A stretch of DNA of 64,000 nucleotides from Vallitaleaceae bacterium 9-2. Lineage in GTDB: Bacteria > Bacillota > Clostridia > Lachnospirales > Vallitaleaceae. Below, one piece after another: positions 24,678 to 54,139 of this stretch. How positions within the stretch are numbered: the stretch's first letter is position 1; each line of letters begins with the position of its first letter. The notes below the pieces were generated by a model that was not told the origin of the DNA, did no database searches, and saw only the letters and a program-made list of their open reading frames with translations. The position numbers were made by a program, and so were the translations under genes. The stretch lies in contig CP121691.1 of the NCBI GenBank assembly GCA_038396585.1, positions 1,054,001 through 1,118,000 on the forward strand, read 5' to 3'.

Positions 24678-27281
24678 ATGAAAAAAAATTATGAAGTCGA
24701 TGGGATGACGTGTACAGCATGTGCGCTCGCCATCGAAAAAAAGTTATCCAAAGTTGATGGAATCGATAAGGTCAATGTCAACTATGCAAATGAACGCATG
24801 GTTGTTGAATTTGATGAAGATAAAGTCGATGAAGCACTTTTAGCAGATCAGGTTAAAGATATTGGGTACCGATTGAAGTTAGATCAGGCAAATACTCAGC
24901 ATAGTGGACTTGAATCTCCTGTTGAAGAACATCTACGCGATATGAAGAGGCGCTTAATCGGTTCGCTGATTTTTACAGTTCCCGTGTTTTATATAGCAAT
25001 GGGACCGATGGTAGGGCTGCCTATCCCATCGTTTTTATCCGGGATGCAAAACCTATTAATTATGGCATTAGTACAGATGTTGTTGACGATTCCGGTGATG
25101 ATTTTGAATCAGGAGTTTTATATTGTAGGATTTAAGACCCTTTATAAAAAAGCGCCGAATATGGATTCTTTGATTGCAGTAGGTACGACGGCTGGGTTTA
25201 TCTATGGATTATATGTTGTTTTTCAAGTAGCATATGGATTTTCCTATAATGACATGGATAGGGTACATCAATTTTCCCATGATTTGTATTTTGAATCAGT
25301 TGTGGTTATCTTGACACTCATTACACTTGGTAAGTTTTTTGAGATTCGAGCAAAAGGCAAGACACTAAAAGCCATTGAAGCCTTGATGGAATTGGCACCG
25401 GAAGTTGGCTTAGTTGAACGTAATGGCGAACAATTTATGGTACCTGTTAAGGAGATCGTACATGGCGATATTTTAATCATAAAAGCTGGAAATAAAGTTC
25501 CTCTTGATGGGGATTTGGTTGAAGGACGCTTACTTATGGATGAATCCATGCTAACAGGCGAAAGTCTACCTATTCAAAAAGAAGAGGCAGCGACAATATT
25601 TGCAGGAACATATTGTCAAACAGGGTTTGGAAAAATCAAAGTGACAAAGCTTCGTGAAGAAACCGCTTTGTTTGGGATTATAAAATTAGTTGAAGATGCT
25701 CAAAGTACCAAAGCGCCTATCGCAAAATTGGCAGATACTATTAGTGGGTATTTTGTTCCTGTAGTTCTTGGGATATCCCTTGTCACATTTATCGTGTGGA
25801 TGGCGCTGGGATATGGACTTGAATTTGCGTTTGTCATGGCAGTATCAGTTTTAGTCATATCTTGCCCATGTGCTCTTGGGTTGGCGACACCAACGGCTAT
25901 TATGGTTGGAACAGGTAAAGGTGCTTCCTATGGAACGCTGATTAAGGGTGGAGAAGCCTTAGAGCAACTACATAAGATTGAAGCCATTGTTTTTGACAAA
26001 ACAGGAACACTGACACGTGGAGAACCACACGTAACACAAATCCGCTATGTCGATTCCAAGGTTTCAGAAAAAACGACACTGGAATATCTTGTTAGTATAG
26101 AATCTAGGTCGGAGCATCCATATGCACAGGCAATCAATCATTATGGACAAGAACATCAAGTTCAATTGCTAGAGACACAAGAATATGATACGATTCCAGG
26201 ACATGGAGTAAAAGCGAAAATTAATGGTCAAGAGATATTAGTTGGAAATAAAAAACTGATGAATGATCATAACATAGGTTTAGCAGAGGTAAAAGATGAG
26301 CTAGGCAGTATAGCAGAAGAAGGCAAGACACCTCTATTAATGGCAATCCAAGGCAAAATTGCAGCTTATATTGTTGTTGAAGATGTCATTAAAGAAGAAG
26401 CACCGGAAGTTATTGAAAAGATTAAACAACTTGGTATTGAAGCTATTATGCTCACAGGTGATCATAAAAAAACAGCACATGCGATTGCCAAAAAAGTAGG
26501 CATTGACCAAGTATATGCTGAAGTATTGCCAGATGGTAAAGCTGACATTATAGATCAGATTAAGGCACAAGGTAAATCTGTTGCCATGGTCGGTGACGGT
26601 ATTAATGATGCAGTTGCATTAACCAAAGCAGATGTCGGCTTAGCCATTGGTAGTGGAACTGATGTTGCTATTGAGTCGGCAGATGTAGTATTAATGAAAG
26701 ACCATCTTTCCGATGTACTTACAGCCATAGAGCTAAGTAAAGCAACCATTCGCAATATTAAGCAAAATCTATTCTGGGCATTTTTCTACAACGTGGTCGG
26801 TATTCCTATTGCAGCAGGTTTATTATATACGAGTTTAGGCATTCGTCTAAATCCAATGTTTGCAGCAGCAGCAATGAGCTTTAGTTCTGTGTCTGTTGTA
26901 ACCAATGCCTTACGTTTAAAACGTTTTAAACCAACATTTTCAAATGCTGGATCGAAAGGCGTAAGAACACAACAAGTAAAGAATAAACCAACAAGTGAAA
27001 ACCAGACAAATGCAGTGAATACAAATGAAGTAAATACAAATAAAGTGCAACAAGAAAGGACGATGATTATGAAAAAATTAATGATTGAAGGAATGACCTG
27101 CATGCATTGTGTAGGACGTGTTGAAGAAGCGTTAAAGGCAGTTAATGGGGTATCTAGTGTTATGATCGACTTAGAGACAAAAACCGCTGTTGTTAATGTG
27201 GAGTCCGGTGTTGAAGAAAGCGTGTTGTCCGAAGCTGTTGCAGAAGCTGGCTATACGGTAACAAGTATTTCAGGTATATAG
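24678..27281 (+). CDS. copA: Copper-exporting P1B-type ATPase with N- and C-terminal HMA domains
   Basis: An 867-residue Cu(I) pump. Residues 1-70 are a heavy-metal-associated domain (GMTCTAC). Eight membrane helices carry the CPC motif (ISCPCALGLATP). The phosphorylation site is DKTGTLT, the actuator TGES is in MLTGESLPI, and the hinge is MVGDGINDAVAL. After the last helices comes a hydrophilic linker (about 745-795) rich in Asn, Thr and Glu, then a second metal-binding domain at about 798-867 with GMTCMHC. A C-terminal HMA is unusual for bacterial CopA and resembles the free chaperone CopZ. The internal ATG at its start has its own ribosome-site-like sequence. Controlled by the upstream CsoR-type operator. 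Confidence 0.95.
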   Translation: MKKNYEVDGMTCTACALAIEKKLSKVDGIDKVNVNYANERMVVEFDEDKVDEALLADQVKDIGYRLKLDQANTQHSGLESPVEEHLRDMKRRLIGSLIFTVPVFYIAMGPMVGLPIPSFLSGMQNLLIMALVQMLLTIPVMILNQEFYIVGFKTLYKKAPNMDSLIAVGTTAGFIYGLYVVFQVAYGFSYNDMDRVHQFSHDLYFESVVVILTLITLGKFFEIRAKGKTLKAIEALMELAPEVGLVERNGEQFMVPVKEIVHGDILIIKAGNKVPLDGDLVEGRLLMDESMLTGESLPIQKEEAATIFAGTYCQTGFGKIKVTKLREETALFGIIKLVEDAQSTKAPIAKLADTISGYFVPVVLGISLVTFIVWMALGYGLEFAFVMAVSVLVISCPCALGLATPTAIMVGTGKGASYGTLIKGGEALEQLHKIEAIVFDKTGTLTRGEPHVTQIRYVDSKVSEKTTLEYLVSIESRSEHPYAQAINHYGQEHQVQLLETQEYDTIPGHGVKAKINGQEILVGNKKLMNDHNIGLAEVKDELGSIAEEGKTPLLMAIQGKIAAYIVVEDVIKEEAPEVIEKIKQLGIEAIMLTGDHKKTAHAIAKKVGIDQVYAEVLPDGKADIIDQIKAQGKSVAMVGDGINDAVALTKADVGLAIGSGTDVAIESADVVLMKDHLSDVLTAIELSKATIRNIKQNLFWAFFYNVVGIPIAAGLLYTSLGIRLNPMFAAAAMSFSSVSVVTNALRLKRFKPTFSNAGSKGVRTQQVKNKPTSENQTNAVNTNEVNTNKVQQERTMIMKKLMIEGMTCMHCVGRVEEALKAVNGVSSVMIDLETKTAVVNVESGVEESVLSEAVAEAGYTVTSISGI
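27069..27281 (+). CDS. Possible internal start producing a free CopZ-like copper chaperone
   Basis: In frame within copA, AAAGGA (27055-27060) lies eight bases before the ATG at 27069. Initiation there would give a 70-residue protein, MKKLMIEGMTCMHCVGRVEE onward, which is the complete length of a CopZ chaperone. The operon has no separate copZ. Either copZ became fused to copA and kept its ribosome site, or the site still works and both products are made. This is a proposal, not a confirmed gene. Confidence 0.4.
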   Translation: MKKLMIEGMTCMHCVGRVEEALKAVNGVSSVMIDLETKTAVVNVESGVEESVLSEAVAEAGYTVTSISGI

Positions 27282-27283
27282 GT

Positions 27284-27553
27284 ATGAATGAAGAACGTAA
27301 AAAAGCAATGAAAATATTAAAAACAGCTCGAGGGCAGGTAGATAGCGTCATTACGATGATTGAAGATGACCGCTATTGCATTGATATCGCTAATCAGATT
27401 TTGGCGGTGAATGGTCTGCTTAAACGTGCAAACCTGGAAATCCTTAAGCAACATATTAATCACTGTGTAAAAGAAGCCTTTGAAGAAGATGCAGGAGAAG
27501 AAAAAGTCGATGAGGTCATTAAAGTCATCGGGCGATTAATTGATACAAAATAA
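27284..27553 (+). CDS. csoR: CsoR-family copper-sensing repressor
   Basis: An 89-residue all-helical repressor of the DUF156 family. Cys32, His57 and Cys61 keep the C-x24-H-x3-C copper-binding spacing of CsoR. Copper binding releases the operator. It starts two bases after copA stops, so it is in the copper operon and should control the GC-rich dyad at 24645-24663. Length is typical. Confidence 0.93.
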   Translation: MNEERKKAMKILKTARGQVDSVITMIEDDRYCIDIANQILAVNGLLKRANLEILKQHINHCVKEAFEEDAGEEKVDEVIKVIGRLIDTK

Positions 27554-27681
27554 GGCTTTGAACATCAAAGCATAATCCATTATAGTATTTTCAGATTTTT
27601 GAATTGAAACTACAATATGCTTATAAGTTACAAATATTCCGACAATTTTAATGAAAAATGCAAAAACATCTGATAATATAC

Positions 27682-27710
27682 TTGCATTTTCAATAAACAC
27701 GGTGTATAAT
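27682..27710 (+). promoter_or_regulatory. Promoter of a structured RNA transcript
   Basis: TTGCAT (27682-27687), 17-bp spacer and a perfect TATAAT (27705-27710). Predicted start near 27717. The DNA between csoR and this promoter (27554-27681) is AT-rich and shows nothing else. Confidence 0.75.
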
Positions 27711-27797
27711 ATAGACAAAGGTTGAATCCGGAATCACCTTATAAACTTATAAATCGTAAGCTTACACAGTATTTAGATGACAAAAGGAGTGATAGGT

Positions 27798-27845
27798 ATG
27801 ATTGAAAAGCTCCAAATGGTAGGATTTATACGAGCAGTAAAATAA
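27798..27845 (+). CDS. Small ORF, 15 residues, inside the structured RNA
   Basis: AAAGGAG ends eight bases before an ATG that opens MIEKLQMVGFIRAVK and stops at TAA. The ribosome site is as good as those of the large genes here, which is why it is listed. It may be a leader peptide, or its translation may shape the downstream RNA fold. No homologue is recognised. Confidence 0.45.
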   Translation: MIEKLQMVGFIRAVK

Positions 27846-28081
27846 GGCCCCATGCGTTGCGAGGGGCGTGTAACAACATATGTTTATCAAATGACGTAAA
27901 GAAGTCGTTGATAATAGGTGGATATGTTTGACATGTAATTATTATAATGAAATATTATAGTGGTCACAACTAGCACCTAAGCAATCACATGTGTTGTGAG
28001 GTTGATTATCACGTAACTGACGGTCGAAGAGAAAGGCCGAACAAGTAAACAATTAAGTAGTACAAGTATATATGCAGTAAT

Positions 28082-28111
28082 AAAAGAGACCAAGGAAACT
28101 TGGTCTCTTTT
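28082..28111. terminator. Terminator of the structured RNA
   Basis: A perfect 13-bp stem, AAAAGAGACCAAG with its complement, around a GAAA tetraloop; ends in TTTT. Confidence 0.92.
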
Positions 28112-28119
28112 ATGTTGGT

Positions 28120-28148
28120 ATGACGAAAAGTAGGAAATGTGATATAAT
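28120..28148 (+). promoter_or_regulatory. mutY promoter, probably giving a leaderless mRNA
   Basis: ATGACG (28120-28125), 17-bp spacer and TATAAT (28143-28148). The expected start of transcription is at or next to the mutY ATG (28155), and no ribosome site fits between. Confidence 0.62.
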
Positions 28149-28154
28149 CATCAT

Positions 28155-29291
28155 ATGAAAAAGTCAAAGAATAATTATAAAATAGATGAAAAATTTTCAA
28201 AACAATTAGTGGAGTGGTTTGAAAAAGAGCAGCGGATACTTCCATGGAGACAGACAGATAATCCTTATCATATTCTGGTCTCAGAAGTCATGTTGCAACA
28301 AACACAAGTGAATACAGTCATCGCATATTACTTCCGGTTTTTGGAAGAACTTCCGACACTAGAAGCGTTGGCTCAGGCATCGGATGAACAATTGCATCGC
28401 CTTTGGGAAGGATTAGGATATTATTCACGTGTATTTCGCTTGCGTCAGTTTGCGGTGGAAGTATGTAGCAAGTATGATGGAAGCATTCCACAGCAAAAAG
28501 AACAATTACTGTTACTTCCTGGGATTGGTCCGTATACATGTGGCGCATTGTTGAGCTTTGCATTCCATATAAAAGAACCGGCAATTGATGGCAATGTTAA
28601 ACGTGTGTTGGCAAGACTTACAAATGATTCGAGAGATATCTCCAAGGCGAGTACACTAAAAGATATGCAGGAGACAGTTTGTGAATTGATGCCAAAAGAT
28701 CCTTATGCGTTTAATCAAGGGTTGATTGAGTTGGGAGCTACGCATTGCCGACCGCGACAGCCTAGATGTGACCTATGTCCAGTAAAACAATTTTGTCATG
28801 GGTATCAACAAGGTACCTTAGAATTCCTGCCGAACAAACCAAAAAAGAAAAAGCAAAAGGAAATGACCGTGCCTGTGTTTTTGTTTCACGACAACCAGGA
28901 GGTGCTTTTTGTAAAGCGCCAATCCGAAGGACTACTTGCGTCCATGTGGAGTTTGCCCATAGTCGAAGTCGATTTATCCCATGTAATTAAAGAAAAAAAA
29001 TCAATGAAAGCTAAGGAGATTATAGAATTAGCTACCGTACAAGATTTTTTTAGTGAGAACTTTGGACAAATGTTAAACCCAAGTACGATGACCATCGTCG
29101 GACCTATTAAGCATGTTTTTTCACATATCATTTGGAATATGCATGTGGTCATTGTCAAGGACCAAGCTTTTTGGAATCATGTAGATAAAATTGAATCACC
29201 CGAAATCATCAAAACGACAATAGAAGAGATTTCATTGCCAACGGCTTTTAAAAAGTGTGTTGAGTTCATTCAAAAAAAGGAGCTTATATGA
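28155..29291 (+). CDS. mutY: A/G-specific adenine DNA glycosylase MutY
   Basis: A 378-residue MutY that removes adenine mispaired with 8-oxoguanine. The HhH-GPD domain shows VSEVMLQQTQV, the helix-hairpin-helix LPGIGPYTCGALL and catalytic Asp in IDGNVKRVLARL. The iron-sulfur loop is C-x6-C-x2-C-x5-C (HCRPRQPRCDLCPVKQFC). A C-terminal NUDIX-like MutT domain follows and reads 8-oxoG. Full length. It precedes a GlpA-like gene whose ATG overlaps the mutY stop. Confidence 0.95.
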   Translation: MKKSKNNYKIDEKFSKQLVEWFEKEQRILPWRQTDNPYHILVSEVMLQQTQVNTVIAYYFRFLEELPTLEALAQASDEQLHRLWEGLGYYSRVFRLRQFAVEVCSKYDGSIPQQKEQLLLLPGIGPYTCGALLSFAFHIKEPAIDGNVKRVLARLTNDSRDISKASTLKDMQETVCELMPKDPYAFNQGLIELGATHCRPRQPRCDLCPVKQFCHGYQQGTLEFLPNKPKKKKQKEMTVPVFLFHDNQEVLFVKRQSEGLLASMWSLPIVEVDLSHVIKEKKSMKAKEIIELATVQDFFSENFGQMLNPSTMTIVGPIKHVFSHIIWNMHVVIVKDQAFWNHVDKIESPEIIKTTIEEISLPTAFKKCVEFIQKKELI

Positions 29292-54021: not shown

Positions 54022-54035
54022 GAATTTCATAAGAA

Positions 54036-54125
54036 CGCTAGGGGGGCCGGAAATGCCGGCTGAGATAAAGACCAATTGTCTTTGACCCTTGACCTGATTC
54101 GGATCATGCCGACGTAGGAAAGCTT
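54036..54125 (+). promoter_or_regulatory. TPP riboswitch (THI box)
   Basis: The conserved elements are present in order: the GGGG run before GCCGGAAATGCCGGC, CTGAGAT, ACCCTTGACCTGAT, GGATCATGCC, then the GTAGGAAAGC closing strand. It binds thiamine pyrophosphate and controls the thi operon by premature termination, with a strong terminator directly downstream. Confidence 0.95.
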
Positions 54126-54139
54126 AAGTCAAATATAAG

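Follow-up and report, generated by a model that had tools for sequence, protein, structure and literature searches.

A candidate lineage-restricted structured RNA family carrying a short, selected open reading frame in Vallitaleaceae

Background

RNAIII of Staphylococcus aureus is a structured RNA of about 0.5 kb with a short 5' ORF for a 26-amino-acid peptide, long-range helices and C-rich loops, while protein sponges of the CsrB type carry several copies of one binding hairpin. Dual-function sRNAs such as SR1 (PMC8501984) and VcdRP (PMC8672173) combine a base-pairing part and a small protein in one RNA; according to the available text of the two papers, VcdRP encodes 29 amino acids and SR1 has reported base-pairing targets. 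Among the arrest peptides of the SecM and RAPP-like type (PMC10951299, PMC10987492, PMC10951233; available text), SecM has invariant residues Ile162, Arg163 and Pro166, of which Arg163 binds a pocket of 23S rRNA (PMC10951299). The raiA motif RNA, or ModT, is a structured RNA of Bacillota (PMC11706538, available text).

The locus described here lies in a window (the whole stretch of DNA analysed, 64,000 nt) of a genome of 3.81 Mb on one contig, and is probably best explained as a member of a new, lineage-restricted RNA family that is both peptide-coding and structured, and probably a dual-function regulator. By description it is like RNAIII in its structured character, its 5'-proximal short ORF and its long-range helices, but its conserved loop is purine-rich and its peptide about half as long. 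It is like SR1 and VcdRP by make-up, although its predicted peptide has 13-15 codons. The likeness to raiA/ModT lies in being a structured RNA of Bacillota; unlike it, the present RNA has no Rfam match, holds an ORF that is coding, and turned up in a single family. Its short, selected peptide resembles SecM and the RAPP-like peptides in a C-terminal I-R-A, but there is no A-site proline, the ORF has 13-15 codons only and no sec or yidC gene lies downstream. Relative to RNAIII, SR1 and VcdRP, what appears to be new is a fixed C-terminal motif in a 13-15-codon peptide, a Shine-Dalgarno lock made by codons, and a core-closing helix over inserts of variable length.

Results and discussion

Locus and transcription signals

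The RNA gene is contained in a 600-base gap between a csoR-like ORF (27284-27553) and a mutY-like ORF (28155-29291), the names of neighbouring genes being read from their translations. The signals that delimit it, and its ORF, are as follows.

27682-27710, + strand: promoter, with -35 hexamer TTGCAT (27682-27687), a 17-nt spacer and -10 hexamer TATAAT (27705-27710)
27717-28112, + strand: RNA gene, 396 nt from predicted start to terminator end, the 6 nt between -10 and start being presumed
27798-27845, + strand: short ORF, MIEKLQMVGFIRAVK-stop, 15 codons, with GGAG at 27786-27789 and a spacing of 8 nt
28081-28112, + strand: terminator hairpin, 14 pairs, found by a looser custom scan

A reading made earlier from the letters of this locus (the sequence-only reading) had called the promoter near-consensus. 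The TATAAT and the 17-nt spacer stand, and a TTG-type hexamer was present 17 nt upstream of the -10 in 12/12 RNAs checked, the window's included (likewise, by eye, in G008); the -35 itself, however, matches the consensus at only 3/6 positions and was omitted by a generic promoter scan. In the g7 RNAs the -10 is TAATAT rather than TATAAT. The terminator was also recovered, by the custom scan; the standard scan did not list this hairpin, the T-run of which falls within the stem. Terminator-like hairpins were seen 0.39-0.87 kb past the start in 10 of the 12 RNAs scanned, with none in G007 or G018 (the contig of the latter ends early), and the end of the G008 RNA was placed by eye. Where an end could be placed, RNA length was thus 0.39-0.87 kb. 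The own genome holds one copy at E <= 0.001, the sole other match being the terminator palindrome on its own opposite strand. The promoter and terminator signals, together with the differing downstream genes described below, make an own gene likelier than a leader, and 27717-28112 looks like an independent transcription unit.

The short ORF and its peptide

The 15-codon ORF and its ribosome site were found as the sequence-only reading had given them, and an ORF of 13-15 codons with an ATG or GTG start 7-10 nt past GGAG was read in 12 RNAs and in G008; several RNAs hold further in-frame ATG or GTG codons nearby, among which the start at 7-10 nt was chosen. The ORF region of G059 is identical to that of the window. 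Where the window's peptide is MIEKLQMVGFIRAVK, those of the relatives are MIDMLQMVGFIRAVR, MIERLQMVGYIRAV, (V/M)KMLQTVGPIRAV, MKMILQLAGRIRAVK, MKMILQSVGRIRAV, VKSILQMVGFIRAVN, MKKLQTRYIRAVI (two RNAs) and MMKLQRRYIRAVI, giving the pattern LQ-x-x-G-x-IRAV near the stop codon (LQ-x-x-Y-IRAV in g7, where the ORF is shorter by exactly one codon, in frame). L-Q...I-R-A-V near the stop was present in 13/13 RNAs read, a count that is not independent of the search, because CTCCA and IRAV served the script to locate the block and were also part of the similarity by which the relatives had been recognized. The same CTCCA and IRAV columns appear in an 11-row alignment, and the codons for the motif vary (Arg as CGA, AGG or AGA; Ile as ATA, ATT or ATC).

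In a coding test on a 10-codon block (eight distinct rows, g7 left out), mean pairwise amino-acid identity was 0.82, compared with 0.57 in column shuffles, none of 5,000 of which reached 0.82. Over 27 nt, identity was 0.80 in the frame of the ORF and 0.50 and 0.58 in the two alternative frames. Variable columns numbered 6/10 at third codon positions and 3/10 at both first and second positions. The ORF region was among the best conserved parts of the RNA. As far as sequence comparison can tell, selection on the peptide itself is thus well supported.

Two further observations concern the ORF and its surroundings. The base just before CTC (27809, third position of ORF codon 4) and the third position of the conserved Arg codon (27833, codon 12) hold either G and A or A and G, respectively, in 13/13 RNAs, and vary within g1 and g7. 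A second helix between CUCC and the Arg-Ala codons was tried and fails as a simple helix, with 88.6% of cells pairing and no two-sided change. In the g7 RNAs (L075, L076 and L119) a second tiny ORF lies just before the terminator, at RNA positions of about 812, 759 and 776, with the peptides MKKLNMEI, MKKLNTVI and MKKLNTEI and a purine-rich site upstream.

Predicted RNA structure

The helices proposed for the window's RNA are listed in order of position.

27717-27741, + strand: P1, 5' hairpin AAGGT/ACCTT with UCCGGA in the loop, from comparison
27786-27813, + strand: P2, Shine-Dalgarno hairpin, in which GGAGU (27786-27790) can pair with GCUCC (27809-27813, ORF codons 4-6), the start codon lying in the loop
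27847-27867, + strand: P3, hairpin GCCCC/GGGGC, 1 nt past the stop codon
27873-27883, + strand: P4, long-range helix, 5' strand, from comparison
27884-27914, + strand: P5, hairpin with octaloop GUAAAGAA (loop 27896-27903), from comparison
27915-27920 and 27974-27979, + strand: helix TAGGTG/CACCTA, nested in P4, close relatives only
27987-27997, + strand: P4, long-range helix, 3' strand, from comparison
28021-28039, + strand: P6, hairpin CGGUC/GGCCG, genus g1 only (UUAGUC/GGCUAA in G002), pairing by eye

The CTC-CA bases of the ORF are invariant despite the availability of six Leu codons, and are complementary to the GGAG of the ribosome-binding site. GGAGU/RCUCC pairing (P2) is possible in 11/11 distinct rows, with U-G (six rows) or U-A (five) as the last pair; no two-sided change was seen among these 11 rows. 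In isolated regions of 53-59 nt, the predicted probability of pairing between CUCC and the Shine-Dalgarno sequence was at least 0.85 in 10/13 RNAs and 0.42 in three g8 RNAs, and the hairpin is longer in the g5 RNAs. Translation of the ORF is probably limited by this predicted hairpin. P1 and P2 are local predictions only, since both are absent from the minimum-energy fold of the window's whole RNA.

The P1 3' strand was placed by best pairing, and two-sided changes occurred at 3/6 pairs in five distinct forms; 133 of 5,000 column shuffles reached its score. Only 4/6 pairs form in G006 and G011. The loop is UCCGGA in 11/13 RNAs and the likewise self-complementary UCAUGA in G002 (G007 is without it), which would fit loop-loop dimers. 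P3, tested without g7, was present in 10/10 of the other RNAs; its single two-sided pair, in g5, did no better than shuffles (2,505/5,000).

P4 was placed in 10/13 RNAs (seven distinct; g7 left out), with 97% of cells pairing and a partner distance of 111-570 nt, its strands having been placed by seeking good pairing; it was not the top-scoring candidate in G009 and G011, and was not found in g7. Three of its pairs show two-sided changes, and among 5,000 column shuffles 20 reached the covariation score and 246 the two-sided count. In single RNAs an equally good helix was obtained in 0-40 of 500 shuffles, G009, G007 and G018 being the worst cases. The sequence-only reading had proposed that TAGGTG and CACCTA form a pseudoknot. 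Both strands lie within P4, so the helix is nested and the pseudoknot falls away; the helix is kept in G001 and G059, not in G002 or g8.

P5 carries the octaloop GUAAAGAA or its variants GCAAAGAA and GUAAAGGA (GUAAAUCA in G006). Two of its three inner pairs show two-sided changes, with one mismatch each in G002 and G007, and 36 of 5,000 column shuffles reached the covariation score and 490 the two-sided count. Occurrences of G(U/C)AAAG(A/G)A had a stem of at least six pairs (one flaw allowed) in 14/18 cases within the 13 RNAs, many of them near copies, and in 0/51 cases outside the RNAs (403,470 strand bases, from the window and 14 loci). Two such hairpins each were found in G011, G012 and G015, one in G000 (the own genome), G001, G002, G008 and four g8 RNAs, and none in G006 and G007; in g7 the octaloop sequence, or a near version of it, stands at the place of P5 without a stem.

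A first alignment (six rows, three helices tested) had 93% paired cells compared with 25-55% in slid versions, its covariation score being reached by 11 of 500 shuffles and its two two-sided pairs by 157 of 500. All column shuffles ignore relatedness, and only five genera were sampled. The check for covariation proposed with the sequence-only reading thus gave covarying pairs among homologues, in modest number. The RNA had also been described as highly structured. Its folding energy is ordinary without the terminator (z = -1.2, 15/100 shuffles as good; z = -4.5 and 0/100 with it), so the structural claim rests on comparison, that is, on the compensatory changes in the helices; these give modest support to a conserved RNA structure apart from the ORF (P4, P5 and P1).

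The 3' part is hardly conserved between genera. A+T-rich near-repeats of the types TTAACAAA, TTAGTTAAAAGATTATTTTGTAATA and GTAGTATATGT, differing between genera, were seen there, in the insert or tail (L025, L072, L078).

Distribution and genomic neighbourhood

The RNA was found in 14/22 genomes of the family, the own genome included, and in 5/8 genera; no copy was found in the other eight genomes (six of g3, one of g4, and one of g2 that is 89% complete). A DNA search of 59 related genomes gave a nearly full-length match of 84% identity in G001, a match over the first 231/421 bases in G002, and matches over the first half in G016, G018 and G009; other matches at E <= 1 were mostly chance-like. 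Three models were then used, each of which matches its own training sequences by construction. R1, a covariance model of the ORF region and hairpins (six training sequences), matched 13/22 family genomes at E <= 0.1, seven of them outside the training set, the weakest being G012 (6.7e-4) and G015 (0.02). R2, a wider model of 10 sequences, was searched with stricter filters at order and class level: in 392 genomes of the order it gave 11 matches, all in the family (0/370 outside), and in a class-level draw of 391 genomes it matched the own genome only; since it missed all three g7 genomes and the filters were stricter, divergent copies elsewhere could escape it too. R3, a sequence-only model of the ORF region (11 sequences), matched 14/22 family genomes at E <= 2e-11, the remainder being no better than 0.0086, and in 398 genomes of the phylum gave two matches, the own genome and G1047 (2.7e-5). 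The latter falls inside a 425-aa ORF and was rejected. G008, missed by R1 and R2, was found via its position behind hslO and the motif, and then added to R3.

Several other candidates were discarded. Six g3 genomes contain exact 18-nt matches to the beginning of the RNA, which precede another reading frame and come without the RNA. The 14-nt motif CTCCARAYGGTAGG occurred in 21/344 genomes, nine of the family and 12 outside, and a reversed control likewise gave 12 outside; 11 of the 12 off-family matches had a locus, and those 11 were without RNA context. Of the eight family genomes lacking a model match, G003 yielded no match to hslO; in the other seven, a motif search over about 9-10 kb behind this gene (to the contig end in G005) gave no copy, apart from one bare IRAV-stop motif in G020 that lies out of context on the other strand. 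A blastn search (E <= 0.01) of 72,556 plasmid and 50,697 phage records gave no match, and a phage or plasmid origin was likewise discarded.

In g5 and g8, hslO (Hsp33-like) immediately precedes the RNA. The distance between them is about 3 kb in G000, G059, G001 and G007, about 5 kb in G012 and about 8 kb in G008; G002 and G015 have them on separate contigs. The downstream neighbour of the RNA is mutY in G000, G059 and G001; G002 has a permease-like ORF there, G009, G013 and G016 a convergent typA-like ORF, G006 and G011 a nuclease-like ORF, and g6 and g7 yet other ORFs.

Comparison with known RNA families

The sequence-only reading had recognized no known RNA family, and the Rfam search that it proposed gave no strong hit: no family of Rfam 15 passed its gathering threshold in the whole window, in a permissive search of 27500-28200, or at eight loci with relatives. 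The four sub-threshold hits fell on the terminator hairpin (three) and upstream of the promoter (one), and at the eight loci only two T-box matches and one TPP match were returned, outside the RNA. For tmRNA, ARAGORN found none at 27500-28300, the genome's tmRNA being at 1605306-1605656. The only RF00013 (6S RNA) match of the genome is at 1576103-1576274. For RNase P, the sole class-B model match is a candidate likewise elsewhere in the genome (2058552-2058869), which scored 47.8 bits (E 8.4e-12) and so fell short of the cut-off of 97.

Two kinds of translated leader were also rejected. A leader-peptide attenuator or arrest uORF is at odds with the terminator hairpins and the differing downstream genes, there being no conserved regulated gene in the same transcript. 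A RAPP-like arrest peptide would have R-A-P/G-P with an A-site proline; here the position after V is taken by K, R, N, I or the stop codon, and in the absence of that proline the peptide is by definition not RAPP-like. No published description of the RNA was found in the literature consulted, which included the available text of PMC6429828 and few subscription journals, supplementary tables aside.

Proposed function and alternative explanations

A new RNA carrying a short ORF is well supported by the transcription signals, the selection on the peptide, the compensatory changes and the lack of an Rfam family. The sequence-only reading had suggested a new regulatory or dual-function RNA; the new RNA with its selected short ORF stands, and regulation or dual function is only the natural reading of it. 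Our preferred reading, to which we give a probability of roughly 0.45, is a chromosomal, vertically inherited dual-function RNA gene of about 0.4 kb (up to 0.87 kb) that would be switched by the ribosome and act in trans. Sequence comparison supports a core fold made up of the 5' hairpin, the hairpin after the stop codon, the octaloop hairpin, and the long-range helix enclosing a lineage-variable insert. The ORF would be translated at a low, self-limited level, its own CTC-CA bases masking the Shine-Dalgarno sequence. An entering ribosome would open P2 and, at the stop codon, also P3, which starts 0-4 nt further on; by opening both, ribosome occupancy would switch the fold of the remaining RNA. 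The latter may act in trans as a regulator via the octaloop hairpins as contact sites for protein or RNA, and the peptide could be a sensor (through slow release at IRAV-stop) or a second product.

As a rather unlikely alternative, the transcript could be a small mRNA for a peptide of 13-15 amino acids with a signalling, membrane-active or regulatory role, in which case the remaining RNA would be no more than a long 3' UTR, protecting or regulating the message. Both the good conservation of the ORF region and the repeat-like 3' part, variable in G002, g5 and g8, would suit such a message, but the two-sided changes in P4 and P5 and the recurrent octaloop hairpins of G011, G012 and G015, modest as these numbers are, would be needless for a passive UTR.

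Ribosome arrest is an unlikely explanation. IRAV would stall the ribosome, which would remodel the RNA; with no conserved downstream gene, such a sensor would have to work in trans or on the transcript that carries it. Against the missing A-site proline of RAPP-like motifs (V then K, R, N, I or stop) stand the I-R-A at the C-terminus in 13/13 RNAs (the search-dependent count given above), which in SecM is I-R-A-G before an A-site proline, and the NAP-stop and DGMK-stop arrest motifs known from PMC10987492 (available text). In the available text of PMC10951299 and PMC10987492, however, arrest peptides sit upstream of a controlled gene, of which there is none here. We also find it doubtful that the RNA is a free-standing translation-state sensor, with fold and trans activity switched by the ribosome on a self-masking, end-slowing IRAV ORF.

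A sponge or scaffold RNA, in which the octaloop hairpins bind an RNA-binding protein and the ORF is secondary, seems improbable: the G(U/C)AAAG(A/G)A hairpin does recur on changing stems, with two copies (stem of at least six pairs) each in G011, G012 and G015, but the window's RNA has a single copy, the G007 stem is mismatched beside the closing pair, and selection on the peptide is left unexplained. Regulation of mutY in cis as its leader, suggested by a co-oriented mutY gene that follows the RNA in the window, G059 and G001, is already disfavoured and very improbable, as a terminator hairpin and a separate TATAAT precede mutY and different genes lie downstream in other genera and in G002.

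Apart from adding a family absent from Rfam 15, the locus has one short stretch that seems constrained at once as peptide, as lock of the ribosome-binding site and as part of the fold. If the ribosome-switched reading is true, a stand-alone RNA would be able to apply leader-peptide logic in trans. As bait, the conserved octaloop could serve to find a putative RNA-binding partner in Clostridia.

Other observations in the window

At 28143-28157 (+ strand), 6 nt separate the end of a TATAAT from the first ATG of the mutY-like ORF, which would make mutY leaderless, or have it start further downstream or use another promoter. A TPP riboswitch (Rfam; 54030-54137, + strand) is ordinary. The CopA-like ORF at 24678-27281 (+ strand, 867 aa) runs on into a second heavy-metal (GMTCxxC) domain, ahead of which an internal AAAGGA followed by in-frame ATGs (27063, 27069) was seen by eye, so that a separate CopZ-like chaperone could come from the same gene.
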